Positions 25,331 through 59,700 of a stretch of 64,000 nucleotides of DNA are shown one piece after another. The position numbers and the translations under genes are program-made. Source of the DNA: Anadara kagoshimensis. Its lineage: Eukaryota; Mollusca; Bivalvia; Arcoida; Arcidae. The stretch lies in assembly GCA_021292105.1 (NCBI GenBank), contig CM037857.1, forward strand, positions 29,498,371-29,562,370. Direction: 5' to 3'. Every line of letters starts with the position of its first letter. The first letter of the stretch is position 1. The notes under the pieces were generated by a model. The model worked only from the letters and a program-made list of their open reading frames with translations, was not told the origin of the DNA and did no database searches.

Positions 25331-26024
25331 GTAAAATGGGGACTATATTGAAAAATAATAATAACATGTATGAATTGTTGCGGCAATATATACCCCGTTC
25401 TATGAACTTTTTGACCTCCCCTCGCATATGCTAGACACAGTTAGTTAAGCCAGGGACCAGTTGCACAGAAGATGATTAAAATCAATGTTTTGTTAAGGTT
25501 TAGCGACGCATACAGATTCCCTGTTACGAGTGAAAAATATTAATCTCACAGTGTGGGAACGGAAGTTGAGTCAAACTGTACAGTTGTCGGTAGCTCTGTT
25601 TATCGAAGCGAGGAATGAAAACAGTGGAGTCAAACGTAAGTAAAAATACGTAAAATTGTTGTTGTTATGAAGTGTTGTGAGATTTTTCATAGGTACATGG
25701 ATCTCACTATGTTAATGCAAGTTTTAATTATCCAACATATTTTGTGAAAAATCAAGCCTAAAACTTTTAATCGTTTGTTGAACATGATAGATCACAGCGG
25801 AATTGTCATGAATTCACGATTTATTCTCAATTTTCTCTATATTACTATTCTATTTAATACCATTCTGAAGACAGTTTGCAAGCCATGAATGTTAAAAATA
25901 ACTTGTGACTTATTACAGTACTTAGAAGTTTGGAGAAAACTTCAAAACACGATTTTATTGGACTGTGTGGTTTTCTGTTTACTGTACAGGTAGCTCACAT
26001 TTTATGACATTGTACTGTACAGGT

Positions 26025-28653
26025 TTTCCAGTGTTATGCACCTACTAACGATGCAGATGAAGAAGACAAAGATGCTTTTTACGAACAACTGCAAAGAGAA
26101 TTAGACAACACGCCAGACCATGATATCAAGATCATCATGGGAGATATGAATGCTAAAGTAGGAGCAGATAATGAACTCTACAATAGGGCATTGGGGCACC
26201 ATGGTTGCGGTATCATGAATGAGAATGGGCATAGGCTTGCAGAGTTTTGTACCACCAACAACTATGTGATCGGAAGAACTCTATTCCCCCACCGAGACAT
26301 TCATAAGTTGACATGGCATTCACCAAACATGAGAGATCAAAACCAAATTGACCACATCATGATAAATGGTAAATGGAGGAGATCATTGCTTGATGTGAGG
26401 GTTAAGAGAGGCGCTGATGTTGGTAGTGATCACCACCTGGTAACAGTATCTATCAAACTAAAACTGCGCAACACACAAGGAAAGCGTACAACAAGGAAGA
26501 GATTTGATGTGGACAAACTCAGAGATATCAAGACAAGGCATGAGTTCAACATCACACTCAAAAATAAGTTTAGCATTCTACAAAACCTACAATCAGAAAA
26601 CAAGATAACATCAGTTGATGAAAAATGGAAAGAAATTTGTAACATCTACACTGAAGCTAGCGAAAAGTGCATTGGCTACAAACCAAAACAAAAGAACAAA
26701 GAATGGATAACACCTAACACTTGGAAAATGATTGAAACAAGAAAATGCACCAAAAAGAAAATACTTGAAGCCAAATCACTGAGACTTAAGGAGAAACATC
26801 AACAAGATTACAGTGAAATTCAGAAACAAGTGAAAAAAGCTGTACGTACAGATAGAAGAACATACATAGATGCCTTAGCAACAAAAGCAGAAGAGGCAGC
26901 CAACAAAGGGGAACAAGGAAATCTATACAAAATAACAAAAGTAATATGTGGGAAAAACAGACCATCACCAAACCTTCCCATCAAAGACAAACAAGGAAAG
27001 CTGATAACATCAGAGAATGAAATGGAGGAACGGTGGACAGAACATTTTAAGGAGATCTTAAACAGACCACCTCCAATCCATGAACCTGAAATCAGTGAAC
27101 CCGAATCAGAGTTGAATATCAACACCAATCCACCAGACGTTCCAGAAATTACAGCAGCCATACAGTGTTTAAAAAATGGAAAATCTCCTGGGAGTGACAA
27201 TTTAAATGCTGAACTATTCAAGACGGACCCACTCTTTACAGCTACCATCCTCCAACCAACCTTCAAAGAAATCTGGGAAAGTAAGACCATACCAGATCAA
27301 TGGAATCACGGAGTCATCATTAAGATACCAAAAAAAGGAAATTTAAATGACTGTAATAACTGGCGTGGAATAACACTTCTCTCCATTCCAAGTAAAATCA
27401 TGGCTAAAATTATCATCAGAAGAATAGCCAAAGCAGTAGATGTCAAACTACGGAAGGAACAAGCAGGGTTCAGACCAGGACGAGGATGTATCGACCAAAT
27501 ATTCGCACTGAGAAACATCATTGAACAGTGTACGGAATGGCAGCGACAACTTTATCTGAACTTCATCGATTTTGAAAAGGCCTTTGACAGCATTCATAGA
27601 AACAGTCTCTGGAGAATTGTGCGTTCGTACGGCATCCCCCAACATCTTATAGACATAATCAAGAGTTTCTACGTCAACTTCAGATGCAAAGTTGGAAACT
27701 CAAGCATCGAGTTTGGTGTCAAAACTGGAGTTCGCCAAGGTTGTGTAATGTCATCAACGCTCTTCATCATAGCCATCGACTGGGTCATGAGGAACACAAC
27801 ATCAGACATCCCAAGAGGCATCAGATGGGGAACGTTCACAACACTTGAAGACTTGGACTTTGCCGATGATATTGTCCTGTTTTCCCACTCCCATCAACAC
27901 ATCCAAGACAAAACACATAGGCTCCACGAGTATGCTGGAAACATTGGACTGAAGATCAATGCTAAGAAAACTGAAGTCATGACCCTAAATGTGAATAACC
28001 CACAAGGAATTAAAATGGACAATCACATCCTCCCATTTACAAACAACTTTACTTATTTAGGGAGTATTGTCACAACAGATGGTGGAGCAGACAGGGACAT
28101 TCAGCAGAGACTAGCCAAAGCCAGAGCAGCATTTAAGAACTTGCAAGCTGTGTGGAAATCCAGCCAATATACCAACAGGACAAAGCTCAAATTGTACAAA
28201 AGCTGCATCATACCAATTCTTTTGTACGGTTCAGAGTGCTGGAGAATGACAGCGAATGACCTTAACAAACTGTCAACTTTCCACACCAAATCCCTGAGAA
28301 GAATCCTAAAAGTATTTTGGCCAAACACCATCTCAAATCAGGACCTTCTCAGCAGATGCGACCAGGAAGATATGGCCACCATCATCACCAGGAGACGATG
28401 GATCTGGATTGGCCACATACTCAGAAGGGACCCTGAATCCATCATAAAGACAACCCTCTTCTGGACACCAGAAGGAAAAAGGAAGAGAGGAAAACCAAAA
28501 GTTACCTGGCGGCGAACAGTGGAAGAAGAGATGAAAGAGCAACAGAGAAGCTGGGGCACTCTACAGAAGCTAGCCAGTGACAGACAGGGATGGAGAGCCC
28601 TCGTTACTGCCCTATACGCCAAAGGCGTCACGGGCAATAAAACAAAAACAAAC
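26025..28653 (+). mobile_element. 5'-truncated RTE-like LINE inside transposon X
   Basis: Flanked by an 11-bp direct repeat ACTGTACAGGT (26014-26024 and 28654-28664). This lies within X's own repeated motif, so it both marks the insertion and reconstructs an intact motif when removed. The 5' end begins inside the endonuclease domain; the 3' end is AATAAAACAAAAACAAAC. Confidence 0.8.
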
Positions 28654-28755
28654 ACTGTACAGGTAGCTCGCAACTGGCATTCAAATTCAAAGTATAGAAA
28701 GTATAAGGAACGCTTTCATTTAATAGAAATGCATGTATCACGATTAATTTTTTGA
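26137..28755 (+). CDS. Endonuclease-reverse transcriptase fragment of RTE-like LINE
   Basis: The open frame really extends upstream to about 26028 (QCYAPTND) without a start codon, so this is a 5'-truncated polyprotein. The first ~110 residues are the C-terminal half of an apurinic-type endonuclease (IIMGDMNAKVG, SDHHLV). Reverse transcriptase motifs follow: GKSPGSDNLNAELFK, EQAGFRPGRGC, FIDFEKAFDSIHR, GVRQGCVMSSTLF and LDFADDIVLF (FADD active site). The C-terminal region has RRRWIWIGHILRRDP and GKRKRGKPKVTWRRTVEEE, typical of RTE and related non-LTR elements. The final ~35 residues read through the element's end into transposon X. The frame is intact, so the insertion is probably recent. Confidence 0.88.
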   Translation: MGDMNAKVGADNELYNRALGHHGCGIMNENGHRLAEFCTTNNYVIGRTLFPHRDIHKLTWHSPNMRDQNQIDHIMINGKWRRSLLDVRVKRGADVGSDHHLVTVSIKLKLRNTQGKRTTRKRFDVDKLRDIKTRHEFNITLKNKFSILQNLQSENKITSVDEKWKEICNIYTEASEKCIGYKPKQKNKEWITPNTWKMIETRKCTKKKILEAKSLRLKEKHQQDYSEIQKQVKKAVRTDRRTYIDALATKAEEAANKGEQGNLYKITKVICGKNRPSPNLPIKDKQGKLITSENEMEERWTEHFKEILNRPPPIHEPEISEPESELNINTNPPDVPEITAAIQCLKNGKSPGSDNLNAELFKTDPLFTATILQPTFKEIWESKTIPDQWNHGVIIKIPKKGNLNDCNNWRGITLLSIPSKIMAKIIIRRIAKAVDVKLRKEQAGFRPGRGCIDQIFALRNIIEQCTEWQRQLYLNFIDFEKAFDSIHRNSLWRIVRSYGIPQHLIDIIKSFYVNFRCKVGNSSIEFGVKTGVRQGCVMSSTLFIIAIDWVMRNTTSDIPRGIRWGTFTTLEDLDFADDIVLFSHSHQHIQDKTHRLHEYAGNIGLKINAKKTEVMTLNVNNPQGIKMDNHILPFTNNFTYLGSIVTTDGGADRDIQQRLAKARAAFKNLQAVWKSSQYTNRTKLKLYKSCIIPILLYGSECWRMTANDLNKLSTFHTKSLRRILKVFWPNTISNQDLLSRCDQEDMATIITRRRWIWIGHILRRDPESIIKTTLFWTPEGKRKRGKPKVTWRRTVEEEMKEQQRSWGTLQKLASDRQGWRALVTALYAKGVTGNKTKTNTVQVARNWHSNSKYRKYKERFHLIEMHVSRLIF

Positions 28756-28817
28756 AAAAAACCAGGTTTGATTTTTTATATTTGGGTTTCAGGGGTATAA
28801 ACGTAGGGTTGCTATCT

Positions 28818-29053
28818 AAAATGCGTGTATCAGGCGTGACATTCATATTCTAAGGTTTTCAACGATCTAAAATGCATCAACTGATCAAGTCATAAAAAAG
28901 ACATGGTCAGACAATACTTTTCTATATAAATTAAGGCGAATATTGTTTATTATGAACAATATACAACTGAATACTATTATGTCTCTAAACTAGTAAAAGG
29001 ATATAGATATAATCATAGAATGTGAAGAATCACGCCTGGGTAACGCATTTTTA
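28818..29053. mobile_element. MITE family C, copy 2
   Basis: AAAATGCGTGTATCAGGCG, then TGACATTCATATTCTAAGG, inverted at 29017-29053 (TCACGCCTGGGTAACGCATT). Same family as the core of the palindromic element at 8756-9020. Confidence 0.75.
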
Positions 29054-29099
29054 GAAGGCTCTATGGCATAAATTGTCTAAATATCATAAAGCCTCAAAT

Positions 29100-30470
29100 T
29101 TGTTTAAAACAAAATAAACAATGTTACGCTCTAGACTGTTCATTTGGCCATTGATTGGTAAATATCGTTCAGCTTTCATACCTTAACCTGTTTTTCCGCG
29201 ATGGAACTCATTATGGTTGTTAAAATGCACAATTTAACATCTTTCATAATGATGCAACACAGAAAAGACCATTGTAACTTAATTCTCATGGTCCAGTGAT
29301 TTTCTTTGATAATATAAAGTTTAACAGGACAATTTTGCTGAAACTTGATTTGCAAGTACAACTTCAGATGCTTTATGTATTTCAACACAAAGTAATTCAT
29401 TGTGACAAATTACATGACCCAGTGACTTTTTAGATGATTTTTAAAGTAATAAAACAATTCTTATGAAACCCGATTTTAGGTACAATTTGGAATGTTTTAC
29501 ATATGACAACACAAAGTTGGTCTTTGTGACCTAGTTTTTCATGGTCATGTGATTTTGTTCGATAACTTTTATAGTAGTTTGATGATTTTGATCAACATTG
29601 ATCGCATATCAAGTCAAAGAAATTTATAAAGTTGCAGAGGATGAATGTCAAAGTCTTCTACATGCAACAATAATGTTTTCAATTAAAGTTAGTTATGTTG
29701 CATTTTGCATTTTCATGAAGGTTGTAGTAAATAGTAAAACATTTAACACGTCTGGTTATTAATGTGCAAATGAAAAAGGTCATAATTATATAGCATCTGT
29801 GCAGAAAAAATAACAATTTCCGGAAGTTGTTACACTTTCATCTTCATTCAAATAACATTCATCATTGCAACTATTAACACTATCAATGATTTTCTAATGT
29901 AAACGTTTGCCACCATTGGGGGTGGTGACTTACCCAGCGATTGAGCCCTGCTACAACGCCGCTTGAATGTCTAGTTCCAAAACAGTTTTAGATATGAAAA
30001 TATTAAGGAATTTTTTCCTCTGCTGAAACTTATTAATCCCTTTAATACGGAGTCCAGAACATATAACTCAGATGATTCGTTTGGTATAAGAATTGTGTTG
30101 TCTTTCTCGTATTCCCTTGGGATGATGTGGAAATTCTTAATTCGAATATCGCCTTGGTTGAGGTCTGTTTAATTAAATTTAAGTTCCAAATCCTTGTGAA
30201 ATATTATACAATGGTCGTCAACCTCAGAAAAAATTATTTTTGCTTTACTTTTGCATTATAAACAATGGAATCGTTTCGGTGTTCTTTTAACATCTGAAAT
30301 TGAGAAAATGTTGGAATAAATATATACTATTGCAACATTTTCTTAATTTTAGATGTTATATAATAAATACATGTATATATATAAATATATGAAAATGTTG
30401 CAAAAAATTTAAATAAACCAGAATTGTCTAAAGGAGACTAATACCCCACCCCACAGAAAAATAAGAATAA
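29100..30470. other. Interior of transposon X, non-coding
   Basis: AT-rich. 29200-29600 has loosely repeated blocks with ACAACACAAAG, TCATGGTC and TGTGACC words, suggesting an old ~115-bp direct repeat. No frame resembles a Transib or RAG1-like transposase. Confidence 0.5.
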
Positions 30471-30479
30471 AAGTATCAT

Positions 30480-30870
30480 TACAGCGGACACGATATTGTG
30501 ACGGAAAAACTAAAATTTGACCTCTTGACCTTATGCATCACATTGTCTCATGTTGGTTTACGTTTGTTTTAAGTTTGATCAAAATCCATCGATAGACGTG
30601 AAAGATATGGTGCGGGCACGATATTGTGACGTAAAAACTAATATTTGACCTCATGACATTGACCTTTGACCTATGTTCATAAATCGGTACCCGACACATC
30701 GGCTCATGTTGTTTTACATCTGTGCCAGGTTTGATCAAAATCTATTGATAGACATGGAAGATATGGAGCGGATACGATATTGAGACCGACAACCAGACGG
30801 ATGGACGGACGGACGAATAGACGGGCGGGCAGACAGGGTGATTTCTATATACCCCCTGAACTTCGTTTGC
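30480..30870. repeat. Dispersed repeat with GGACGGACGG motif
   Basis: CACGATATTGTGAC, TTTGATCAAAATCCATCGAT, then GGATGGACGGACGGACG and ATACCCCCTGAACTTCG. Related copies at 31500-31835 and 53185-53460. A common bivalve-type interspersed repeat; it is imperfectly duplicated within itself (about 30490-30620 and 30625-30770). Confidence 0.6.
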
Positions 30871-31499
30871 GAGGGTATAATAATGCATTAAACCTTGAAT
30901 TATTATTTGTTTTAATTTTGAGCTACCTGTACAGAAAAATTACATATATTTAGAGCTACCTGTACAGTATTTTTCGAGCGACCTGTACAGTAAACAATCT
31001 CCAAGGTGCAACGAAAAATCTTATTTATAACAATAACCATTTAAAGGAGGGTGATATCATCTTAATATATGTGTAACTTTATATTCAAAGTTGTCTCAAG
31101 TATTGTTTGTTACACTAGAAAATTCATCACTCTAGAGAATTTACGCATTTTTCGCTACAAGTCGATGTATTTTATCTCACTGTCTCGTGTTCAAGTGTTA
31201 TTATTGTCGTGTGTATAAAGATATAAGTGACACCGAATTCTTAAAATGGTAAATAATTTTCATCGTCAAATTTCTCCATTTAAATTTCTATCCAGATCTT
31301 ACAGTATATGCTTAATACAAGTTAAAAAGTAACCACCAACCGTTTCGGACATAATGTTTTTATTTCGTCTTTCGCTGCAATGAACAGAGCTACCGAAAAC
31401 TGTACAGTTTGACTCAACTTCCGTTCCCACACAGTGAATCTTTATTCTGGTTTATTTGGGTTTTCTATGGATATAATTAAGAGTAATTCACTGTCACAA

Positions 31500-31835
31500 A
31501 CAGAATGGCTTGAACAGTAGAAAAATGTACATGTGCAATGGACTGTGACTGTGACAGTCAACACAATGAAGAATGCGTACGGTACAGTACAAACTAGAAC
31601 TGTCTCTTGAGAGCCAAATTCCCCGACCCAAACATTTAATGCTTTCCTGCGACCTTGACTTTCCTATATAACCTTGTTTCAAGGTCATGATGCACCTTTA
31701 GATCATGAAGATTATTCATGCGAAGTTTTTTAGAGTCGTTCAAAGCAAGTATGCATTATGGTCTGGACACGATTTTACATGGACAGACGGACATGGCGTT
31801 CCTATATGTCCCCATCAAACTAGTTGGGGGGATAT
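31500..31835. repeat. Second dispersed GGAC-type repeat
   Basis: Shares AACTAGAACTGTCTCTTGAG with 53190, then CTTTCCTATATAACCTTG, GGACAGACGGACATGG and a TTGGGGGGATATAAT-type end. Confidence 0.55.
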
Positions 31836-32172
31836 AATTAAGAATAGAGATAACCAATGAAGATAAGAACAGAACTCATATTGAGATCACTGATTACTGA
31901 CTTCGGACGGGCACTGGTAAAAATGATTAATGGTGAGACTGTAATAATACCAAAACATCGCCCAGAAGCAAGATTCGGTGTTTCGGTTTTGCTTGATGTG
32001 GGCTCATTTTCATGACACATTTTATATTTCGTATGTACGCTTTTCCCGTTAAAATGTCAATAAATTAATTTTCAACATACTTTTTGCATTTGAAATCCCT
32101 GATAAATGATTAATTATTTATGTCCATTAATTTGGCAGGTAGTAATACTGTTTCACCGTTTCATTAATTTAC

Positions 32173-32398
32173 CTCACGAAACTGTTCATTTCTGATAATC
32201 AGGATTCCACCAATAAAAGAAAAGTAATGGTTACGTGGATGTATGTCTGGTGACGACACGTGGAATGGTCCTTTTTCCGGATACGGATATGTGATATCGG
32301 TATTATTCGGGATCGTGTCAACATCATGCATGCATATATGGTCACAGTCGGATCGGCTCTCTAGGTAGCCAATGTTGATTAGGGCACCCCTGTTAAAC
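32173..32398 (-). CDS. B4GALT7: B4GALT7 exon 2
   Basis: Codes for residues 118-193. It enters in phase 2 (completing Arg118, acceptor TTTACACCAG) and leaves in phase 0 (donor GTAAAT). It begins FNRGALINIGYLES and contains the metal-binding DVD motif in MHDVDTIP (residues 143-145), then EKGPFHVSSPDIHP and FIGGILI. The spacing and wording match B4GALT7 much better than B4GALT1-6. Confidence 0.95.
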
Positions 32399-32499
32399 CT
32401 GGTGTAAAATTAAAGCAACGAAAATTAAACGTACATGATATAGTCCACGCAATATAAAGCTGGATCACCCTTGCCAAAGAAATTCAAAGTAAATATTAA

Positions 32500-32740
32500 G
32501 AGTGAAACCCATGACCACTGAGTTTTTAGGACTCTATGTGCGTTCTGTTGACCAATTATAAACCTGCTTAAAACTGTATCATTTGAATTTACCATGCATA
32601 TCTAAAGAACCACATAGGATTGGGGGAAGGTTGAGCCAAGGTGTAGTGCTTCTTTAGGACAAAGTTTCTGTGCGCTAGTCAAGAAATTCAAAAGCTGATA
32701 TTCGCGAATATTAAAACAACTAAATTACTAATACCCATCC
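32500..32740 (+). pseudogene. Decayed mariner transposase relic in B4GALT7 intron 1
   Basis: Blocks matching the mariner at 23795-24030 in order: GTGCGTTCTGTTGACCAATT then ATAAACCTGCT, GGAAGGTTGAGCCAAGGTGT, AGTGCTTCTT and GTGCGCTAGTCAAG. Heavily mutated and not translatable. Confidence 0.65.
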
Positions 32741-32744
32741 AAGA

Positions 32745-32900
32745 ATCTAACTTTAGAGTACACCCCCTAGGGAACCATTAAACGTGACCTTTAAGTATAT
32801 AAGTCCCTTATAATATATAGGTTCAAATAATGTGAATAAAGAGCAATTGGAATAAAATTTACTGGCTTTTAAAAGCAGTTACAGGAGGCTGACCAAGACA
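32745..32900. mobile_element. MITE family B remnant
   Basis: Contains GGGAACCATTAAACGTGACC, ATATAGGTTCAAATAATGTG and TTACTGGCTTTTAAAAGCAG, in the order of intact family B copies at 34226, 46613 and 49109. Confidence 0.6.
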
Positions 32901-33035
32901 AATTAAAGATCTGGGTACATCAAAATAATTAAGGACATCCACTAATTTCATTAACCCCTAACCACCCCATCCCCATTCCGCAAACGACGCTTGGTGATGG
33001 TTTTAAATGAATAACCCTACCTGCTAAATACCTTC

Positions 33036-33252
33036 TACAGTACAGACCAGTCGAAAGTTTAACACTGAGCTAATAAAAAGGAGTCGAGGCTAGGCTGCGA
33101 GTGGCTGAGATGTAGATACCATGTGTACGAAATGCTGCGAAAGCGACAGATAACAGTTTCCGAAATATTGGGAGCCAGGGGCTATTCTTAGCTGTCGATT
33201 TGGTGTTAATTCACTAGCTCAGTGTTAAACTTTCGACAGGCCCGTACTGTAC
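33036..33252. mobile_element. MITE family A, copy 3, in B4GALT7 intron 1
   Basis: TA-CAGTACAGACCAGTCG on the left; GTTAAACTTTCGACAGGC then CCGTACTG-TA on the right. Confidence 0.85.
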
Positions 33253-33570
33253 GTCTATTAATGGACTTTTACCAAACTTGGCACAACTATAAACCAACAT
33301 GCCCTCGAGACAATGTGCAGCATACCAAATTTAGGTTCCCATATCGAGTATGGTATACAACTGGCAGTTCTAGTTCATACTACATGCATGATATTTATTG
33401 CTTATGGAGAGCGCTCCGTCACCGTGCCAGATCAACGCTATTTCTAAGAACTTAACCTCAAAGTGCAAAAGCCCATGTCAAATATGGATAAAAGTACCGA
33501 AATCGGTAATATGACACGTGTACAGTTGTAAATTATATTTGTACTGAATAAAAAGTTCATAAAAAATTAC

Positions 33571-33923
33571 CGGAAGTTGTCGCCCTGATTGATGACGTAG
33601 AAGGCATGACGTATTTTTCGTTTGTTTAGATAACTGTGCATGAATGGCGCAAACTCAATCAGTGCCTCGATTCTATCCCGGAACGGAACGACTATGGCCA
33701 TTTTGTGGGGACCCCAGCTCTTTTCATCTTTAATATCATTCAATTTACTCATCCGAATGCTTTCCTTAAAATTAATTTTATCTGCATCGTCGGTTTCATT
33801 GCACACATTCGGACAGGTGTTTCCGACAGGTATATGCATTCGTATCGATATTACAAATACTAATATCCATATTCCTAGCCACAACAGACATTTTCGTTGT
33901 CTGTAGCTAACATACAAGAACAT
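33571..33923 (-). CDS. B4GALT7: B4GALT7 exon 1: xylosylprotein beta-1,4-galactosyltransferase
   Basis: First exon of a 324-residue protein (human B4GALT7 is 327). The enzyme transfers galactose from UDP-Gal to xylose on proteoglycan cores in the Golgi, the second step of the glycosaminoglycan linker. The chosen ATG at 33921-33923 gives a short basic tail (YRQRK), a signal-anchor at residues 12-27 (LLWLGIWILVFVISI) and a luminal stem with one NET sequon (42-44). The frame is open further upstream but contains no ATG before a stop. The catalytic domain begins WGPHKMAIVVPFRDR (70-84) and runs to YVINQGDNFR. The donor CCG-GTAATT splits codon 118. Later exons carry DVD, WGWG-x-EDDD and HIH. All five junctions are in phase, with no stop or missing motif, so the gene looks functional. 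Confidence 0.93.
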
Positions 33924-34225
33924 ATTAATGACGCTACAAATCTCCAAAGACACAGATGACGTCACTATATCATCCAAATGAGCAACACCGGTCGGTTCTC
34001 AGCTGGCTGTGTATAATCATAAATCCCTCCTCAATTTCGCCACCATTAATTCGAAGATTAGAACGTAACATTACTTTTATTTGATGTTTTCAAGCACCTG
34101 GAACAGAAAATGATAACAACCTATGTATAATGGTTCCGTTTTTCTCGGGGTATACGGAAAAATCCAAAAATAACGGGACCCGGTTTATTTTTCCTTTTTA
34201 AATTTTGTCTGTAAATTGATTATAC
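33924..34225. other. Presumed 5' flank of B4GALT7
   Basis: On the minus strand a tiny upstream ATG-ATA-TAG frame lies just before the in-frame region (about 33971-33973). No TATA box or initiator can be assigned with confidence. Confidence 0.4.
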
Positions 34226-34401
34226 AGTCAAACCTGTCTATGAAGGCCACCCAAGGGAACCAGTAAAAGTGGCCTTTATGGGCAGGTGGCCTTTATATAC
34301 AGGTTCCAACAATATGAATAAACAATCTGGATACAATTCTACTGGCCTTTATAAGCAGGTGGTCCTTATATAGAGGTGACATTTAAGGCAGGTTGGACTG
34401 T
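34226..34401. mobile_element. MITE family B, copy 1
   Basis: TA-CAGTCAAACCTGTCTATG on the left, GGCAGGTTGGACTG-TA on the right. The interior has CCACCCAAGGGAACCAGTAA, ATATACAGGTTCCAAC and CTACTGGCCTTTATAAGCAG. About 176 bp, same family at 46613 and 49109. Confidence 0.9.
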
Positions 34402-37191: not shown

Positions 37192-40100
37192 AGTATAGTG
37201 CGGCAAGTTTGACCTGGCCGTTTGACCTTTAATAAATATTAAAACAGAGATATCCATTGTGTAGTCCAACTAATCAGCCCACTAAACCCCCATTTTAATT
37301 TTTTGACTTTTTGGAGGTTTGTGGTCTGACAGCTTCCATTATTGAATTCTTGAAATTTCTGGCGAAAACGGCAGAAACGAAAACACGCGTCGATAATTTC
37401 CATTATTTCCTTACCTCGCTCTTGTTGACAACATGGAACACTTCCTAAAACATTATTCTACCGATCCATGCTTAATTTTTAAATAAAATCCATCGATATC
37501 GGTAGAAATACAAGGTTTTCTATGTCTCTTCAGCTCTCTGTCACTTTTACATCGTGAAGACATTACTAATTTGCATTGACCAATCAGATCGCGCGTTGCA
37601 TTTGGATGGTGAAACTCGCAGTTCTATCTTTAGAAAGCACATGGCGATGTTTATTTACATTAACGATTCGCATTATTAATGGTGTTTAATACATATACTT
37701 ACAAAAGGTAACATTGCAATGTATTATTTATATGTAGACTTTCAAATAGAGTAGTCTCAATCTTCTCTATATATTTTTATATTCTTGACCCCTCTCATTT
37801 TTCTGAACTAGTATCCTAGAAATATTATTCCAGTAATTTTGGAGAGAAAAAATTAAGCACCACACTGTATATATGTATGTTCACGCAAAATACAGTTAAA
37901 ATTGAACCCTATGACAAAATTTACAGTGTGGTCGGGATGAATATAAGAGAATTACTTTTAATGACCTTGCGGACAAGTACTCTTGTGTTGAACTTTATAT
38001 ATTACAATTGGTTTAAAAACTTATAATTCTACGGTCTACAAAATATTGGACAAAACTTGACAGCATTTCAGGAGAACATGCAAGTCCCAGATATGATAGA
38101 ATATTACCTAATTTGAAAGAAAAAATAATTTAGATCATAGGCGTAGGAGGGTTTTTAATATTGGTGTGGGGGGCAAACCGAAGCTATGTCTATGCCGTGC
38201 CACAGGTACGACCTCGTGCCATACGGGCACGAGGCGGGGAGAGTATGGGTGCTAAACCCCTCGCATAGGTGGGGGTCCAGGGGGCCTTCCCCGGAAAATT
38301 TTCAAAACTAACCCCTGTCTAGACGCATCTTTGATGTATTTTGCAGCGTTTTGATAGGTTAAAATATTGTGATATCAAGGCAAGCTTAAAAATAATAACC
38401 GTATGACACAAGTTCCATAATCAACCCTCTCATTGGAGATGGATATGGGGGTACCCCAGAAAATTTTGCAGCGTTCTGAGTGAGAGACTGAAAAGCAGTG
38501 AAATATTAAGACAAAATTGTACAAATAACTGCATGACATAATGAAGTCCAATGATTAATTTTCAAACGTACGGTACTCAACTCACGACTTCTGGCTACAT
38601 GGAGATTAAGAAGGTTTGGTGCCATATAAATAAACTAATTAACCACACCAATCTACATTTACCTTTGATGTACATCATTAAGATGGGCCATGGGCCTAGC
38701 ATTGATATAATTCTCAAACCCCCCCCCCCTTCCAAAAATCCTGGATCCGCCCCTGCCATTGGAGATGCTGTGAGCCGTTTCTAAGGGTGAATTTCAAGAC
38801 GCCCTTTTAATTAAATACAAGTATAATGATGGAATTGATAATTGATTGGTTACCAGATGGACATTTCCTGTTAAAGCTCTTGGTTTTTTTTTTTAGCACT
38901 TACACTATAAACATAAACTATGGTACAAAATTTCACACAATATATTGCGGGGGCCTGCCCCCCCCCCCCCCCCTCCCCCTGCTCCTAAGCCTATGTAGTG
39001 TAGATATAAACGAGAAAAAACATGAGAAATCTTCACTGCAATTAGTACACATGTCGTCACATGGTATTGATAAAAATAAAATAACTAATATAATATGTTT
39101 TACGCGTGAAAACATCATTAATAATGCGAATCGTTAATGTAAATAAACATCGCCATGTGCTTTCTAAAGATAGAACTGCGAGTTTCACCATCCAAATGCA
39201 ACGCGCGATCTGATTGGTCAATGCAAATTAGTAATGTCTTCACAATGTGAAAGTGACACAGAGCTGAATAGCCCGAGATTCCTCTGGCCCGAATTTTTTT
39301 TTTTTTTTTTTTATCAATTTCGGGCCAGAGATCGGGCTTCATTATTTTACATAACGTGATGCCGTTGAAATCCTACGGCAGGGTAAGATTTAATTTGGCG
39401 GATATGTTCACTTTATTTTCACGGGCATTGGGTAATGAACCAGTCAGATCGCTTACTTGAACCTTTATTCACAAGAATCCATCGAAAAAACTACGTGGCA
39501 ACTCCGTTTTATATCCATTCCAGCCATATAAATCCAACACATCCTTCATCATCTCGCCATTTTTTATGTTATGATATTCAAATAACGCGAGATCTCGCGG
39601 GTTAAAGTCTCCCTTTTCAGATACACAAGTGTTGGATTTATATGGCTGGAATGGATATAAAACGGAGTTGCAACGTAGTTTTTTCGATGGATTCTTGTGA
39701 ATAAAGGTTCAGGTAAGCGATCTGACTGGTTCATTACCCAATGCCCGTGAAAATAAAGTGAACATATCCGCCAAATTAAATCTTTCCCTGCCGTAGGATT
39801 TCAACGGCATCACGTTATGTAAAATAATGAAGCCCGATCTCTGGCCCGAAATTGATAAAAAAAAAAAAAAAAATTTCGGGCCAGAGGAATCTCGGGCTAA
39901 GAGCTGAAGAGACAGAAAACCTTGTATTTCTACCGATATCGATGGATTTTAATTAAAAATTAAGCATGGATCGGTAGAATAATGTTTTAGGAAGTGTTCC
40001 ATGTTGTCAACAAGAGCGAGGTAAGGAAATACTGGAAATTATCGACGCGTGTTTTCGTTTCTGCCGTTTTCGCCAGAAATTTCAAGAATTCAATAGGCCC

Positions 40101-46484: not shown

Positions 46485-46490
46485 GTATAT
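46405..46490. repeat. (TA)n microsatellite
   Basis: A long uninterrupted TA run preceded by an AATTATATATATATACATG inverted segment. Confidence 0.9.
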
Positions 46491-50464: not shown

Positions 50465-50634
50465 CTTTGAAATATTAGCGTTGTTCCTTTCTCTTTAGCA
50501 GAGTAAACGGACAGTAAGATTAAAAATGAAGAGCTGTGCCTTTCATCAAATTTGGCATGCGCCATCCTATCTTGCATTACCCCTTGAAATACCATGAGCA
50601 GAAATATTATTATTTAAATAAATAAAATTCTAAC

Positions 50635-50774: not shown

Positions 50775-50839
50775 CTAAAATTAAAAAGAAAAAAATGTAT
50801 TTAATAAGGTTATCATGATATACAACATTTGTACCATGA

Positions 50840-50920
50840 AATAAGCATTCATTGAAGGGGTTTTACATCCCAGTCAAGAATATTTCACTTATATCAAGCT
50901 GTCAGTGTAATTTTATCATC
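50840..50920 (-). mobile_element. SINE 3' end fragment
   Basis: TTTTACATCCCAGTCAAGAA, then TATTTCACTTATATCAAG is the inverse of the SINE 3' end. Confidence 0.55.
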
Positions 50921-51603
50921 TTTCATCATGCTTTATTTCATCAAATGCTAAGCATACAACATTACCTCAATCCATTGCCATCATCATTTATTCAGTCAAT
51001 GTTTGGTGTTGTGAAGGAGGTTGGTAATAAATCAAGAGCGTTTTATAGAACAAACAGATTTTGGGGTTTCAAAATAATGTGGCTATATGTGAGGTTTTAC
51101 AGTTTTCAAGGGGCATTATAATGAGGTTTTACTGTATATGTATATTCTTGCAATCCTGGACTGGGAAACTGGACGATATCGCAACAATTATGAATACTTA
51201 ACCACTCTAGAAGGCGTTCAATATTTGTAACCTCAAGGATTATATCAGATTACCCAGTCCTGATCCTCACTGCATGGGTAATGTGAAACAATTCTTCTAT
51301 CCTTCTTGCAATCAAATAAACAAACAAATTCAGTGAATAAGGATCCCCTACCAGCAGGTTTTCTTTTTGTGATTTGCACTTATGTTCAAAAGGCCATTAC
51401 CCCCAGGAAAATAAGCAAACTGACTCTGGTAAATGATGTGTGCATCTCCTATCTTTGTTGATGCTTTGCACCAAGTTTCGTGAAATAGTGCTTCACAGTT
51501 TTGGAAAATTAGCGCAGACAAGAATTTCTGATGGACAAAAACTCAATAAGGTAAGGTGAGGGATATTAAAGTAGTCACATATAAATCATATTAAATATGC
51601 TAC

Positions 51604-51768
51604 CTTGCACACTTTTTATGGCCCCAGAGTTTAGCAAGGTCCAGTGGTGAATGTCCTCTGCAATCTTTCAAGTCAATTTTAGCACCGACTTCAATTAGTA
51701 ATTTTAGACATTGGACATGTCCTTCTGATGCTGCCTGGTGGATTGGTGTTATCCCATCATTGTTTGGA
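51604..51768 (-). CDS. ANKRD53: ANKRD53-like exon 3 (ankyrin repeats)
   Basis: Codes for residues 129-184. It begins PNNDGITPIHQAASEGHVQC (one ankyrin repeat, about 131-163) and continues with GHSPLDLAKLWGHKKCA, a second, terminal repeat. Acceptor AATTTTGTAG and donor AAG-GTAGCA. Phases join both neighbouring exons without a stop. Confidence 0.9.
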
Positions 51769-53475
51769 CTACAAAATTTTAAAAGTTAAGTTTTCTATTT
51801 CCTCATTTATAGGTTTATTATTTTCCAAATAATTTTCGTTGGTCTGTTTGATTTCTCTTAGAATTCTTTGTTTTTTACTAACTCCTTTTTTCTTTTTTAC
51901 ATGCAATTATCATATAAAGACTAAAATCTAATTACACATTTAATTTTACATGCATGCACACATATTACACATGTATGTATATTGTTGTTATTTAAATTTT
52001 TGGGAAGAAGTGGCCATGAAAATTGAACCTAAATTTATGTCATAATAACTTCTTAACCTGATATTCAACCAATACTTCAGTAGAAGTTCAGTGATTGATT
52101 GACTGGTTGATCAGTAGATGATTGATTGATTAGTTCATTGTTTGATTGATCAATTTTCATTTAATCAAATCAATATTTCAGTAATTGGCTGATCCATGAA
52201 TTGATCAATTGCATATAAATATCATGGACTGATAAAGAAAACTATTCACTGTTTTTTCGAATTTTTTTTTTTAAAAAAACCCACTCATAACAAAATTGAA
52301 ATGAATAGATTTGAAAAATGGTAAAATTAAGAGAATTCTGTAAAATTTAATTTTAATATTACATTTTATTTAAAATAAGCATGTATGACTTTCTAGTCTA
52401 AGTTTGAAACACTACATCCCCAATGTCATAAGGGAGCATTGGTCTGACGGGTCTAAAGCAAGTACTTACAAATCAAAACCCTTCTCACAGCCTAATATAG
52501 AAATTCTAACTAAGGCTGTGAGAAGGGTTGTGATCTGTCATCTGGCGACCAAGGAGGTGCGTTTAGGGGTGAAAATTTTCCTTTTTTACTTTTCAACAAT
52601 GAATGACATTGTCAGATTTTTTGGCTAGAATACTGCTAGGAAAGATCCTAGTATTGGAGATTCCCAAAAGTCAGTGGTTTTCTCCAGGTTCTCCAGTTTT
52701 CTCTGCCATTCTAAAACTGATCAACTCAATATAGGTGAAAGAATCTTAACAGGGACGTAAAACACTTATATTCCTCCACTCTGATCAAAAATAGCAAAAC
52801 AATTAAATGTTTTTCATTATCATCTATATGGAAATTGTCTGCACAAACTGTGAAAAAATGGACCATTTTCCATCAACAATAGGCCTGTATTTGTCTCATG
52901 AGATATTACAGAAAAATATGTGGACTGTCAAAACCCTCTGCAGGGATGACGCTTAACTATTTTGAGTTAGGGGCCCAGCTCACTTTTGATGAGAAGTTGC
53001 AATAGCAATACAATGCATAAACAAAAATCTTTAAAACTTTGCAGGCCAAGACAAATTTCTGGGGTCATGGGCTGCTTGTTTATCTCAATCCCTGCTTAGT
53101 CCGAGGGATAATTACTTTTTGGAAAGCCTCAAGATGCTTTTAGCCATAATTGAGTATTCTCATCAAAATCTTTAGTTTGAATTATTTCAACTAGAACTGT
53201 CTCTTGAGAGCCAAATACCCCCACCCCCAACATTGACCTCCTGCCTTGACCTTCAATTTATGCACATAAATTTGGTATGCGACACATCATCTCATGTTGG
53301 TTTACATTTGTACTAAGTTTGATCAATATCCATCCATAGACATGGAAAATATGAAGCAGACACGAAATTGGGACAGATGGATTGATGCCTATATACCCTC
53401 CCCTCCCCCCCCCCCCAAAAAAAAACTTCATTTGCAGGGGGTGGGGTGATGGTGGTATAAAATAAATACACATAC
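51769..53475 (-). other. ANKRD53-like intron 2; SINE fragment, hairpin, dispersed repeat
   Basis: Holds a TTGATTGA-rich tract (52080-52230), a strong hairpin (52481-52529), a SINE-like piece (52655-52785) and a GGAC-type dispersed repeat (53185-53460) with a poly-C run near 53405. No exon seen. Confidence 0.6.
52481..52529. repeat. Perfect 15-17-bp stem hairpin
   Basis: ACCCTTCTCACAGCCT is mirrored by AGGCTGTGAGAAGGGT, with a ~19-base AT-rich loop. Function unknown; may be a tiny foldback element. Confidence 0.8.
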
Positions 53476-53675
53476 ACTGAAGGGTCGGCACTTTTGTTTA
53501 ACAGATAAGTCAGACACTGTAATGCTCTTTTTCCAGTTTGGTTACTGATACAAAGATGAACTGCTCGCCATCCTGTTGTACTTGGTAGATTTATGTTTAT
53601 TTTGTATTTCTCCAGTAAAAGTTTCAGACACTCTAATCTGCCATGGATAGCTGCAAGGTGTAATGCTGCTAGACC
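53476..53675 (-). CDS. ANKRD53: ANKRD53-like exon 2 (ankyrin repeats)
   Basis: Codes for residues 63-129. GLAALHLAAIHGRLECLKLL is a canonical ankyrin repeat, followed by a variant repeat (GWRAVHLCISNQTGKRALQC, LTYLLNKSADPS). The insertion within the second repeat parallels the vertebrate protein (TPLHLVIHRDN... YYLLEKGAD). The donor TCAGT-GTATGT is fixed by the need to complete the Val codon with exon 3; a GTGTAT two bases earlier would break the frame. Confidence 0.92.
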
Positions 53676-54110
53676 CTATATTATATAAAAGGTACAACAA
53701 TTTTAATATACATGTACAGTAATAATTTCTTTAAATCAACAATAATGTCAATTTATTAACAGGGGTCACTACTGTACCACCTGATTCTTTCTAACGTTTG
53801 TGTGGAACACCAATGAATATTGAATCACATCATGTTTTCTCCTAAAAATGACATTATTCTGGAAACTTGTGACATTAACAGTTTCCAAAACATATTTCGC
53901 ACAAATGTAAAGAGGTATTGATCAAGTATGTGGTACAGTGGCGACCCAATTCCTTGTTTTTATAATATAGCATTAAATAAAAAGTATAATTTTTATTATC
54001 TCTTGATAGTATATTTATGGGCTGCTATATATATAGTAACTTAGTTGGTGCCTAGAGTAAAAACAATATCCCTAAATCTAGCTACAGTCAAACCTACCAG
54101 TAGTCTACAG

Positions 54111-54309
54111 AACAGTTTACACTATATGTCAAGACATATATGACTTGTCATACATGGCAAAACAGTCAGTGTAAAGTGGAGACATGTATCATTTTTTACA
54201 TATATCTTGTCAGATGAAGTAGAACTTGTTCTTATTTGGTATGTAAAACATAGGTAACAGAGAAAATCACTCATGGCAAGTCATATATGTCTTGACAAAC
54301 AGTGTAATC
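54111..54309. mobile_element. MITE, ~200 bp, TGTCAAGACATATATGACTTG ends
   Basis: Left GTCAAGACATATATGACTTG then TCATACATGG is inverted at about 54272-54300 (CAAGTCATATATGTCTTGAC). Outer ACAGTTTACACT / AGTGTAATCTG words extend the pairing. Confidence 0.75.
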
Positions 54310-54964
54310 TGGCCTGTAAATAGATCTGAGTACTATATTTACAATCATTCAATTGCTCATGAATACAGTGTGGGTCATGACCTCTGATTACGTAACATAT
54401 AACAACACAATGACGTTAATGAATGACATTGTATTACATCATGCATTTTTGTACAGCGTGAACAAAGTGAACACGTACATTGGTATCGCTTTCTTCCAAG
54501 ATATCGAGCTTCTTTGCTATGAAATTATAAGATATGAGTACACCTGGAAATAGTGCGCCTGGTAAATGAGCGTGAAAGAAGTATGTCTGTTTTATCGTGA
54601 GATATGTATTCTGAGACGGGTAATGCATTTGGTTACATATGCACATTTGGAATAAATTTTCGGAATACATTTCAGAATCTAGTAAAATATTGCGACGGGA
54701 TGCATCTAATAATTTCTGCAATTTGGCGAACTGATCTCATGTTTACAATAAAAAGTAGTTCGAGAAGTTTGCGTCCTACGATGTAAATTCATAACTTTTT
54801 AAGAAATGAACAGCAACGGCAGGTTGTTTAATTAATTCTTCGTGAAATCTACGAAAATTTATTTTGAAGGTTATGATAACGTATTTTGATGTTGAGGCAA
54901 TTGTGTCATATTTTAAAATGTTTATCGATTAGATTTTACTTTCGTGAAAGGGAGATAATTCGTA

Positions 54965-55372
54965 CAGTGTTGTATGCAAATTTTAAATACAGTCGTTTTG
55001 CCAGTTCCGAACAGGGTTTCATATAAGCGCTGCTGCAGACGTCATCCACAAGCAGAGGAAATAAAATTTATGTGGTGTAATAATACAAATGTTTACTGAT
55101 TCCAAAATATCGACACCTGTCCTCAAAAACACGTGGTAGTATGTTTTCTTGAAAAAAGCATTTCCGTGATCACGATTTGTTTACATCGTTAAACTAGGTC
55201 ACTAACAATCTGTCGTACATTTAGGAAGCGGTTGAAGAAACAGCAAATTGAGAAAGTTATTTTGCGATTCCTTTAATTGAACGGGATTGAAATTTTAGAT
55301 TATTCGGTAGTAAAAATTCGGAACTGGTAAAACAACTAAATGATCCAGTTTATGCATACAACCGCTAGAATG
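54965..55372. mobile_element. Inverted-repeat element, ~400 bp
   Basis: GTTGTATGCAAA and CGTTTTGCCAGTTCCGAA at the left pair with TTCGGAACTGGTAAAAC and TTTATGCATACAAC at the right. Confidence 0.65.
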
Positions 55373-55559
55373 TACCCCCTCATAGCGACGGTAGGATCTG
55401 CAAAACTCTACTTTCTCTATCCGAAATGACAAAACGATCGGGTACAACTTTTTTAAATTTTAATTACCGATTGTCTTTTTCATATATTTATGAAATTAAT
55501 TTTTTCTACCATTTAATTCAGCAATACATGGTTTGGTACATAAAAATTTGTTTCTTTTT

Positions 55560-55640
55560 CCAAAAAAAAAAAAAACCATCTGTCGGACTATATGCATAGA
55601 TCGACGACACCCCCCCCCCCCCCCCCCCCCCCCCCCGAAT
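55560..55640. repeat. Homopolymer cluster (A and C runs)
   Basis: A run of A's at about 55562-55575 and a C run at about 55610-55636. The open frames here (poly-Pro/poly-Gly) come from the C run. Confidence 0.9.
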
Positions 55641-56074
55641 TTTTGGTTATATTCTGTCTTGCCACAACACAATTTTCCCAACTACGCTGTACAACAGCAC
55701 GACAGTGCTATGTTTTAATTGGTCAGCATTCAAGCCAAGTCCCAGCATTTCTGTCCTTATTTGGATAAGTTTGTCCCATATGTTTGTCGGAATCTTGAAT
55801 AAACTAAATTATTGTAGCGATAATTTTACATTTTTGATATCGTAACAATATTTTTTATTATTATATAGCAATATATGCATCCCATAGAAATTAAAGGATA
55901 AATCCTGAGGTGTTAGCATGCAATATATACTAATATTTGCATGCAAACTTTGTTGCAGTCCTAGGTTTCCCGAATCAATTTTTCATATTGCAAGCTTTGT
56001 CACATGACGCTGTCATTTATGACGTCATACGATATTGTTACATGGCTGATGATGTCATGATTGTGTTATTGTTG

Positions 56075-56120
56075 TATTGCACTAGTTCTTATATCCATAT
56101 ACAAGAACTAGTGCAATATT
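56075..56120. repeat. Hairpin around ACTAGTTCTTATAT
   Basis: ATTGCACTAGTTCTTATAT and ATACAAGAACTAGTGCAAT form an almost perfect stem with a very short loop. Confidence 0.8.
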
Positions 56121-56199
56121 TATGTATTGTAAGAAAAAATGGTATTTTGAGATGAAATGCTAGTGGGAAGTAAACGAAATTTATTTTGCTATATAATAA

Positions 56200-56325
56200 A
56201 AGGGTTATTGAACTGATATTGTGAAATATTGTCCAGAGTTGACTTGACATTTGCACGAGCTTGCGAGTGCAAATTTCGAGTCAACGAGGGACAATATTTC
56301 ACAATATCAGTTCAATAACCCTATA
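56200..56325. mobile_element. Small palindromic MITE, ~125 bp
   Basis: GGGTTATTGAACTGATATTG, TGAAATATTGTCC is inverted at 56290-56322 (GGACAATATTTCACAATATC). Inner arms around TTGACTCGAAATTTGCACTC pair less well. Confidence 0.8.
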
Positions 56326-56715
56326 TGATTGTAAATATAAGAAATAACATTCTATTTGAGTGTATTCATTCAATATAATGAATGAGAGTCAGGAATAGCA
56401 TATTCAACATGATCTGTAGATGCTACAAAGACCTACTTTCTACTTGATGTTGATGCTCCAAAAAGGGCACAAGAAACCCCAAATATTAAATATTGCTCGT
56501 TGAAGATCAGGTTATTTTAAAAATGGAATTATTTCTGTCATCACTTCCTTTATTATTGATGATATTGGGCCATGGGATTCACGGCCTAATATTATCAATA
56601 AGGAGGGCAGTTGGTGACAGAAAAAAATTGATCTAGTTATTTGATAGGCCAAATCTGCATTGTTTTGGAATGATATAATAATTGTATTATAGTAAAAGGT
56701 GTGATGGACCAGTGT

Positions 56716-59700
56716 CACAGTATGTAAACTCCGGTGTACGTCTTCCGGAAGCTGGGATCGTCGAAGCGATCGTGTGATGTTGATAGTCTCAATGACTGAA
56801 GTTTAGAGGTATGTAAACGCTCAAAATTAAATTGTCAAGTCTTGGATACCATTTATAATTTTGGTTACTGAAGTCAGTAACACTTAGACATTACAATTTG
56901 CCCGCAAATATCACCATATAATGTCAAAAAACACAATTGATCATCGACAGCCAAGGAAAAGTCACCAACCTCCTTGGCGTAAGATTGAATTTTACCTTAA
57001 TTTAAAGCCGATCTTACCGTTTTATAAGGTAATTGGAACAAAGAAACATCAAAGAGTTTGAATACAAATCGCATATGCAAGATATACGTTTAAATATTTA
57101 ACTACAACAAGTATTATTTTTTACCCGGTGTACGATTAGCTGCAACTCTTGCAAAATCATAACAACCGCCTAGCTGGGATTTTAGTGTACATTAGCTGCA
57201 TTTATGTGAACATCTCTTCATACATATATTTGTGTTTGGTGTTGTTGTAAAACATAGTAAAATTAATTTTGTTCTCTGACAAAACGTTGCTTCGTGTTAA
57301 CTTGTTTAAAGAATTGGTTTTTCGTTGCATTTTCAACTTGAAAGAAGTTATTTTTAAGAATCCCAGTATTTTTCTTGCGAAATATGCAAATTTACTTCAA
57401 AATACAAACCCAACTTGGACCACCATCTGTAGATTCACAATAATTCAACAACCCGGCCATCTTATGGATATCAGTCGATTATCGTGTACATTATCGGAGT
57501 CAAAATCTTGTGAATCAACTATTTAGTGAATAAACCTTTCATTGCATTTAAGTCATCTCCTCCAAAACTACCTGGCCAAATTTGATGAAACTTAATGACA
57601 ATCATGCCTTGGTGAAGGGCTTTCTGGTTTGCACAAATGAGGGAGTTATGTCTCCTTTGGGTCCTATAAGGGAAATAGTAAAAATCTTTTCCTCTAAAGA
57701 TACAAGAGATTCATGTGTAGCATACTTAGGACATGTAGTAATCGTAGCTATAGGGCTTAAAATGGGGAAATGACAAGGTTCTTGAAGGGGAAATTGCTAA
57801 ACTACTATATTTGTCAGTGCATGATCTAGAAAACTATCAACTTTTTGTATAGGCATGTATATTAAAATATTGTAGGTATTAGCCTTAAGGTCATTATCGG
57901 CATGAACGGCAATGATCTCATTTGCATATCCGCCATGACAGTCCGCTATGAATAATGTCTTACTGAAGGGAAATAAAAGCGAAAGAAAACAAGTTCTTTT
58001 AAAAAAAGTCGATAACTCCGAACTTTCACTACACACATACATGATACCCGTAATGTTTATTTGTTAGTTTCATATCAAAATACAGGTTCCTCGGCGTGTT
58101 TAAATTTCGAAGCGTAAAGTGTGGTTGTCCTCTATATTTTCTCTTACAAAGCCAAAAAGTTCATAAGTTTTAATCTCGCCATTCTAAATACACAATCGGA
58201 AAACCAAAAGTGCCGAGGGCACATTCGATTCAATGATTTACAACCGTTAAAGATATGGAGTATTTGTTTCTGAACATTTATATATGCTTGGTTCCCAGAT
58301 AATTTGAAAATCTCGTATTTTCAGTAAATTCCACAAAGGGGGATTGAACTTATTTTTAAAATTCTAATAATAAAAAATTCCCCTTTAAAATTTTGTGGTA
58401 TTTTCTTTGTTTAGGGAGCATTTTCTTGTTACACCGTAGTTAACGTCATTTAAAAAAGGGGGGGATAATTTCATTACAGATAATCAGGGCCTTCGCGATT
58501 AAAAACGTCTGCTACGACGTCACAAAATATCTGTCTGGAAAACTCTAAACTTTTTGTATATGTATGGTTTTGGCGTTATCTACAATGGCGAAGTTCATTG
58601 GATCAAAGGTCAAGGTCATAGATGTGTAAGAATACTGAAAGGGCTTAGTTTTTTGCCTTTGTACTTTTTAATAGCTGTTCATACATTTATTGTAGCTAGA
58701 CCTTAAATATTTAGAAGTATACGGTAGCATTTTAGGATAAGTAATAATAAATTTGGAAATATCCTTACATTAGGTCCTATCTCTTGAAAATTAAAACAGT
58801 CCCTGTAATTTATGTGATTGTCCATTGACTTTCTACACGAGATATGACATATCCTGAGGTGAGCGTTAATGTCCTTGGTCCCCTGTTTATTTATCTATAA
58901 TCGGTTATTTTTATTTTATTTTTGTCGATTGATTTAAAAAGAAAGGAATGATTTATAGGTTCTGCTACTACCAACAACACGCTCTTTTCAATATATACGA
59001 TAGTTCAGTTTGTAATGCGGTTGGTGTAGGAGGTCGTGGGTTCGGAATCCGGCCTGGGTCTGACCAAGTCTTAAAAATAGGTAGTAAATACTCAATGTAC
59101 TCGGCATGTAGAAATGAAAGTCGCCGATTCATTCGAAAAAGACCTTAAAATCCGTTCCTTCATATCATAGCAGGCGTGACACCGTAAAGAACTCTTCCTA
59201 CACATTGTCCTTAGCGCACTGCAAAGGTCAATTTTTTATGGCTTCACATATAGCTGGCGACGTCTCCATATAAGTGAAATATTATTAACTTTTACGTCAA
59301 ACTGCATCTAATCAATCAATCTATTCATAAATAAAATGTATATTAAATGGCACCATATCCTTGATATTAGCATAAAGTTGTGAAGGGGTTTTCTCAACCG
59401 ATTATCTAAGAAAAATGTGAAAAATAGCAATAAATTGTACAATTTTCTGTACAGCTAGGCGTACATATTTTTCCACTAAAATCCCAGCTAGGCGTTCATG
59501 TTTTCATCAGCTAGGCGTACACTATCTGGAATCACCAGCGTGAAATTAAATCAGAATTTCTTCTAAACTGTCGCGTTTTGGGATAAAGGGATACGTCACC
59601 TTTGATCGTAACACTTGGTTTCTTAAATCAAATGCATTAAATGTGGTATTTATTATATCTTTATGCTCGGGAAATATAATTTATTTGACTTCTTTAAAAA

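Follow-up and report, generated by a model that had tools for sequence, protein, structure and literature searches.

Outer sites and spaced inner site arrays at the ends of two probable DNA transposon families in the bivalve Anadara kagoshimensis

The 64,000-bp stretch of Anadara kagoshimensis DNA analysed here (contig CM037857.1, positions 29,498,371 to 29,562,370; hereafter the window) carries two elements, X and Y, whose termini are short inverted repeats. A window scan for inverted repeats that begin with CAC and are flanked by a matching duplication of at least 3 bp found exactly these two. At both ends of each element an outer site, TGTAC-N10-AGCT, lies close to the tip, and an array of sites of the shorter form TGTAC-N4-AGCT lies further in. 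The features are as follows (window coordinates; TSD, target-site duplication; ORF, open reading frame).

25542-25546 and 31437-31441: TSD of X, AATCT
25547..31436, plus strand: element X, 3250 bp once the nested RTE is subtracted
25547..25611, plus strand: X left terminus, CACAGTG, 23 bp, TGTAC-N10-AGCT, N7, TCGAAGCGA
25983..25995, plus strand: X left inner site 1, TGTAC-N4-AGCT
26016..26024, plus strand: X left inner site 2, 33 bp inward of site 1, the part interrupted by the RTE, within the duplicated 11 bp
26025..28653, plus strand: RTE-like (non-long-terminal-repeat) insertion in X, with RVT_1 and endonuclease domains and an 11-bp duplication
28656..28668, plus strand: X left inner site 2, intact copy beyond the RTE
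30064..30285, minus strand: decayed zinc-finger ORF remnant in X, 78% against residues 1-74 of the ORF in X copy L055, two stops
30921..30933, minus strand: X right inner site 3, innermost
30954..30966, minus strand: X right inner site 2, 33 bp to site 3
30977..30989, minus strand: X right inner site 1, TGTAC-N4-CGCT, 23 bp to site 2
31372..31436, minus strand: X right terminus, CACTGTG, 23 bp, TGTAC-N10-AGCT, final block diverged to TTGCAGCGA
56711-56715 and 59957-59961: TSD of Y, AGTGT
56716..59956, plus strand: element Y, 3241 bp
56716..56769, plus strand: Y left terminus, CACAGTA, 12 bp, TGTAC-N10-AGCT, N7, TCGAAGCGA
57129..57141, plus strand: Y left inner site 1
57168..57175, plus strand: Y left inner site 2, half-site GCCTAGCT, its AGCT 34 bp from that of site 1
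57186..57197, plus strand: Y left inner site 3, N3 in the window copy
59453..59465, minus strand: Y right inner site 3, innermost
59486..59498, minus strand: Y right inner site 2, TGAAC-N4-AGCT, 33 bp to site 3
59509..59521, minus strand: Y right inner site 1, 23 bp to site 2
59903..59956, minus strand: Y right terminus, laid out as the left

The inner motif is concentrated in these arrays. Of its eight exact copies in the window, seven are inner sites of X and Y and one lies in the RTE (26838, minus strand), unrelated to the arrays; the window beyond the elements has no copy. Shuffling dinucleotides 200 times, with the satellite removed from the window, gave a mean of 0.23 and a maximum of 2, which rules out a chance origin. 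One site at the right of X (TGTAC-N4-CGCT) and one at the right of Y (TGAAC-N4-AGCT) are variants. Complete sites start 437 and 470 bp from the left tip of X, and 448, 471 and 504 bp from its right tip. The first-pass annotation had placed motif copies in both elements at similar distances from the ends; the copies are there, and the agreement is tighter than claimed. Read from outside inward, the right arrays are spaced 23,33 in X and Y alike, and the first left gap is 33 bp in X and 34 bp in Y, where the AGCT boxes of the window copy have gaps of 34 and 22 bp. Around the arrays, identity between the two elements falls close to chance (109/336, 106/358, 80/300 and 71/300 identical positions, ungapped). 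A decayed long terminal inverted repeat (TIR) was ruled out for both elements, whose two ends agree at the terminus and in the arrays and otherwise share 10-bp matches only. The RTE insertion is a later event and stands outside the end architecture of X.

The outer site occurs four times in the window, once per terminus (shuffle mean 0.245, maximum 3). The same annotation had reported TGTAC-N6-CGG-N-AGCT in the terminal repeats, and at three of the four termini of X and Y the longer string TGTAC-N6-CGG-N-AGCT-N7-TCGAAGCGA is exact (0 in 100 shuffles). Its description of the two families as different in outer sequence holds in that the outer ends have diverged; it fails in that they are homologous and share this register. 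The best 35-mer identity between X and Y ends is 24, and letter shuffles reached at most 23 in 1000 runs. Judged by their sequences, X and Y are related, with outer ends that are diverged homologues. TGTAC follows the 7-bp tip after 23 bp in X and after 12 bp in Y. An inner site equals an outer site minus 6 bp between its halves, and the inner sites keep letters peculiar to their own family: CTGTACAG...GTAGCTC in X, GTGTACG...AGCTG in Y. At both ends, each element thus has one site in two versions, N10 outside and N4 inside, a feature of the inverted repeat/direct repeat (IR/DR) type.

In the 1.115-Gb source genome, a search with the left end of X gave 40 scored matches and 566 first-look candidates. 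The sample comprised 40 elements (39 fetched plus the window copy), the best matches to the left query, which are 96-99% alike across the left end. The left spacing of 33 bp recurs in 40/40 copies and the right spacing of 23,33 in 34/40, so the sites are fixed and do not lie at random positions, one of two outcomes that would have spoken against the first-pass annotation. The other was a motif common genome-wide: in 91.9 kb of flanks of 39 X copies, TGTAC-N4-AGCT occurs twice, both times within another Y copy. The TSD is exactly 5 bp in 33/40 copies, 6 bp in three (L035, L045, L047) and absent in four (L026, L032, L039, L057), among them L039, which also lacks the right array, and L057, which is truncated by the end of its stretch. 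The left tip reads CACAGTGTG in 38/40; the right tip reads CACAGTGTG in 20/40, CACTGTGTG in 17/40 and otherwise in three. X and Y alone, both with a TSD of the form A...T, would also allow a 3-bp TSD with TCAC tips, a possibility rejected on the 17 of the 33 exact 5-bp TSDs that are not A...T; the 5-bp TSDs favour an initial A (24) and a final T (21). In the first 20 copies fetched, interior deletions never reach into the initial 600 bp, and they leave the right array untouched in 19 of these copies. Variants shared by at least four X copies fall in 0 of 85 inner-site columns and in 47 of 845 other columns, and the left inner sites diverge less than their surroundings (0.0029 vs 0.0223, P = 0.0044). 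The near-equal lengths of X and Y in the window are a coincidence, as X copies span 2.1 to 4.3 kb (L057 excluded, its end lying beyond the stretch). In L057, an insertion within the X copy holds a 160-amino-acid (aa) open frame of unknown kind (1915-2394, plus strand).

The same layout was found beyond X. The left end of Y gave 40 scored matches and 376 candidates; in 4/8 fetched left ends (window copy included) site 3 is of the N4 type, giving gaps of 34 and 23. A second Y copy, with TSD TTAGT, keeps the 33 of the right end and has seemingly lost one 23-bp unit (by eye). The outer pattern TGTAC-N10-AGCT matched four times in the X flanks: in Y copies (L025 and L058), once without a CAC tip (L045) and once in a new family, Z (L051). 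A Z copy of 3740 bp (L061, TSD GTGGA) has inner TGTAC sites at 401, 425 and 459 (gaps 24,34) and, at the opposite end, at 423 and 455 (gap 32). Those at the first end have the form TGTAC-N4-AGT, those at the second TGTAC-N3-AG; the AGCT half therefore varies and the spacing persists. By eye, the Z tip resembles the X tip minus 11 bp in the spacer. The shared motif and geometry claimed for two families thus held, and extend to Z and to the gene-bearing element described below; outside X and Y the IR/DR-type feature takes the form TGTAC-N4-AG in the gene-bearing element and at one Z end, and N3 at the other. In L058 (565-5401) an X with TSD ATATT is inserted in a Y copy, and that X therefore landed after that Y. 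Around position 5109 of L025 (plus strand) lies a degenerate TGTAG-N10-AGTC-N7-TCGAAGCGA with the register kept, possibly a fourth, decayed family, which runs off the end of the stretch.

Genome-wide, CACAGT-N{11,28}-TGTAC-N10-AGCT was matched 1,129 times and its reversed control 18 times. Among the 100 matches listed, taken in contig order and not selected by length, the spacer from heptamer to TGTAC is 12 bp in 75, 23 in 20, 22 in three, and 13 and 15 in one each. By eye most of these matches are X, Y and Z ends, so that few families are represented and the two peaks do not amount to a hundred independent events. Pairs of TGTAC-NNN-TAGCT number 1,063, against 30 for the reversed pattern; 20 of 100 listed pairs lie outside satellites, with spacings, counted by hand, of 23 (9), 33 (8), 32 (1), 24 (1) and 29 (1). 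Satellites containing this pattern, with no evident transposon link, lie at G000:C1:38222644-38225690, 38643141-38644855 and 44801674-44801876. The end patterns were found neither in viral contigs nor in a genome-contig collection, and the 13 viral-contig stretches with inner pairs, mostly repetitive collagen-like sequence, show nothing end-like in the letters inspected.

Coding capacity was found outside the window copies. A Pfam scan of 10 of 22 ORFs in Y and of 7 among the 21 ORFs listed for 28660-31436 in X gave nothing at or above cut-off. On comparison, several X copies retain an open remnant, 129 aa at most, whose residues follow a CxxC...H...H pattern; it lies some 1.1-1.5 kb inside the 23,33 end and is read in the direction away from that end. 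For the L055 copy of the remnant, Pfam returned nothing at E up to 5, the PDB yielded nothing convincing, and no relative turned up among viral contigs. A genome search with the X remnant (150 scored matches, 258 candidates) led to C5:1818412, where a 446-aa frame matches at 39% identity (E 8.4e-14). The gene-bearing element spans 8,261 bp (L071 and the adjoining L072), has Z-type ends with 12-bp spacers and is flanked on both sides by the TSD AGGAT. Its inner sites lie at 414, 438 and 472 (gaps 24,34) and at 401 and 434 (gap 33), and its large gene starts shortly inside the three-site end. ORF1 is the 446-aa zinc-finger ORF. ORF2, of 816 aa, matches YqaJ (31.0 bits, cut-off 22) and, below the cut-off of 24.6, TNP-like RNase H N (19.2 bits); it has 35 matching pieces in the genome. 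A 220-aa ORF with six C2H2 fingers (L072 1832-2491, minus strand) runs antisense and convergent to the large gene, an orientation that the accessible literature also gives for RAG1L and RAG2L; this protein alone matches zf-BED (28.2 bits, cut-off 20.6), with zf-C2H2 at 62.4. In the homologue L073, regions resembling ORF1 (by eye, minus the zinc finger) and ORF2 share one 1101-aa frame. YqaJ (PF09588) reaches 31.0, 35.9 and 37.7 bits (cut-off 22). A three-sequence profile of the large ORF retrieved lambda-type exonucleases only among PDB chains at E up to 10 (best E 0.011), and hAT-type Pfam domains were absent from the large ORFs at E up to 1. The gene-bearing element is probably autonomous.

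From this anatomy, its recurrence in copies and families, the TSDs and the gene-bearing element, we infer that X and Y are probably non-autonomous families of one group of cut-and-paste DNA transposons with a gene-bearing partner, their ends combining bipartite sites with an inner assembly array. Each end would have three parts: the CACAGTR tip as cut point; the outer TGTAC-N10-AGCT, 12 or 23 bp inside it; and an inner array of two to three TGTAC-N4-AGCT copies roughly 400 bp deeper into the element, with gaps close to 23 and 33 bp. The sites are best read as predicted transposase-binding sites, since letters peculiar to each family recur in the inner and outer copies. Both site classes would be bound by a DNA-binding protein that the element encodes, probably the transposase; the candidates are the zinc-finger ORF, the large ORF and the antisense C2H2 protein. 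The large ORF may join a YqaJ-type nuclease to a probable RNase-H-like transposase core, and ORF1 and ORF2 may act as one protein. The inner array would recruit and multimerise the binding protein, and the resulting complex would bridge both ends. By analogy with Sleeping Beauty and Hermes, the array would load the multimer and the outer site with its CAC tip would be cut, the outer site alone being presented owing to its longer gap and the adjacent tip. The two ends may be told apart by which gap comes first: 23-24 where the large gene starts, 32-34 at the opposite end.

Several observations weigh against this interpretation. The left query included the first left site, which partly builds in the constancy of left sites, though not of right ones. 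Six of 40 X right ends deviate (23 alone in two; 23,32, 22,33, 33 alone and none in one each), and right inner sites diverge about as much as their surroundings (0.0248 vs 0.0261, permutation P 0.47, L039 and L057 dropped). The second left site of Y is a half-site in 8/8 fetched left ends (window copy included), and the N3 sites at one Z end are a further inconstancy of the arrays. Unrelated tandem satellites of 37-bp and 19-bp units hold 80 of the 100 listed TGTAC-NNN-TAGCT pairs and may account for much of the 1,063 total. On the coding side, one gene-bearing element has been traced to both ends; in it ORF1 and ORF2 occupy separate frames, and ORF3 overlaps ORF2 in another frame. PF21787 (TNP-like RNase H N) scores 19.2 and 20.1 bits against its cut-off of 24.6 and has no match in the homologue L074.

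The inner arrays could instead bind a host factor, or serve as promoter or enhancer of the transposase gene, and have no part in synapsis. The large gene does begin just inside a three-site array, and the accessible text of a Hermes study judges auxiliary transposase binding at inner subterminal sites unlikely (PMC10368747). We nevertheless consider this explanation unlikely: arrays lie inverted at both ends, even at the one where no gene starts; the inner site replicates the terminal outer site, down to its family-specific letters; and the arrays are kept in X and Y, where no intact transposase gene was found. Plain common descent of X, Y and Z, with arrays inherited without present function, agrees with their homologous termini and with the 96-99% likeness of X copies over the left end, a likeness that makes conservation among copies alone show little. 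It earns little credence, as the X-Y surroundings are near chance identity and yet motif and spacing persist, and shared variants are missing from all 85 inner-site columns of X.

It is equally improbable that X and Y are Transib/RAG-like transposons, as their CAC tips, resembling the heptamer of the recombination signal sequence (RSS), their 5-bp TSDs and their spacers of 12 and 23 bp might suggest. CACAGTG is the consensus RSS heptamer in the accessible part of PMC8289069. The protostome RAGL TIR consensus CACTWMCAAACKTYKBB, as given in what is available of PMC7204232, is unmatched by the X and Y tips, which have for instance G at position 5 (by eye). The spacer is equal at both ends of each element, X, Y, Z and the gene-bearing one alike, and there is therefore no 12/23 pairing. 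The encoded-protein profile found lambda-exonuclease-type chains only, at E up to 10, in a PDB set that presumably included RAG and Transib chains, and Pfam gives YqaJ and a weak TNP-like RNase H.

The proposed group of transposons with bipartite sites and inner arrays has partial counterparts elsewhere, and graded multi-site transposase ends are already known from Sleeping Beauty and Hermes. In Sleeping Beauty, according to the accessible text of PMC7827188, outer sites are longer than inner ones, one end has an extra half-site, and inner sites are proposed to nucleate assembly. The present ends resemble this IR/DR layout of Tc1/mariner in having two site classes per end, the outer longer, and a half-site at one end. 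There the outer site is 2 bp longer, one inner site lies in a TIR of about 220 bp and the target is TA; here, by contrast, the outer site is 6 bp longer, two to three inner sites lie about 400 bp further in, the TSD is 5 bp and the similar termini measure about 55-75 bp. Hermes, a hAT element, has two unlike ends of about 450 bp, with several zinc-finger domains of one oligomer on a single end (PMC10368747, accessible part). The likeness extends to end length, the difference between left and right, and short repeated sites, which in Hermes are read by zinc-finger domains of a multimer. Unlike here, its sites are many, irregular and concentrated at the tip, and its target is 8 bp; the large ORFs here lack a hAT match.

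RAG, Transib and ProtoRAG share with these elements a CACAGTG-like tip, a 5-bp TSD and a second conserved block at a fixed spacer; the PDB profile search, in contrast, detected no sequence relation of the encoded protein, and the accessible portions of that literature do not mention subterminal arrays. A YqaJ exonuclease (PF09588 above cut-off) is also encoded by autonomous ISL2EU (PHIS) elements, in which, on the available text of PMC4482050, it is a separate ORF and the TSD is an AT dinucleotide. Here YqaJ shares one frame with the RNase-H-like match, and the TSD is 5 bp, not AT. A possible link to the P superfamily, which includes Galileo, is the hint given by the sub-threshold TNP-like RNase H match. 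P elements have an 8-bp TSD and a THAP domain, unlike the zinc finger, YqaJ and 5-bp TSD found here. Galileo, in the accessible part of PMC3688188, has multiple sites for the transposase domain in long TIRs. An identity with KolobokP, which is abundant in bivalves, was rejected: its long terminal direct repeats (PMC9587614, accessible text) were not seen in the present elements.

We assign the element to none of Transib/RAG, ISL2EU and P. The end architecture had been called undescribed: no prior description was recognised in the open-access literature, Repbase being outside that scope, and the claim stands to that extent; its multi-site principle is known from Sleeping Beauty and Hermes. A named superfamily for these ends may already exist. 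That they represent an undescribed animal superfamily, with a protein joining YqaJ to an RNase-H-like core, RSS-like CACAGTG tips, a first binding block 12 or 23 bp inside them, and ends labelled by inner gap order (23,33 at one, 33 leading at the other), is a tentative and rather doubtful proposal. If it were true, gap-order labelling would be an independently invented spacing code comparable to the 12/23 rule. One genome here combines several non-autonomous families with a gene-bearing candidate partner, and their sharp cis-code, made up of an N10 outer site, an N4 inner array spaced 23/33 and a tip spacer of 12 or 23 bp, is directly testable. Should gap order specify left and right ends, the group would offer a comparison case for the emergence of synapsis rules like 12/23, possibly in a lineage other than RAG.

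Other features lie elsewhere in the window. A long tandem satellite, open in several frames of both strands, occupies 10477-17430, and a Mariner/Mos1-like transposase in two overlapping frames, the first matching HTH_48, lies at 23203-24227 (plus strand). At 39269-39899 and 39334-39835 are perfect 24-bp inverted repeats with flanking duplications of 9 and 4 bp, perhaps a fold-back element.

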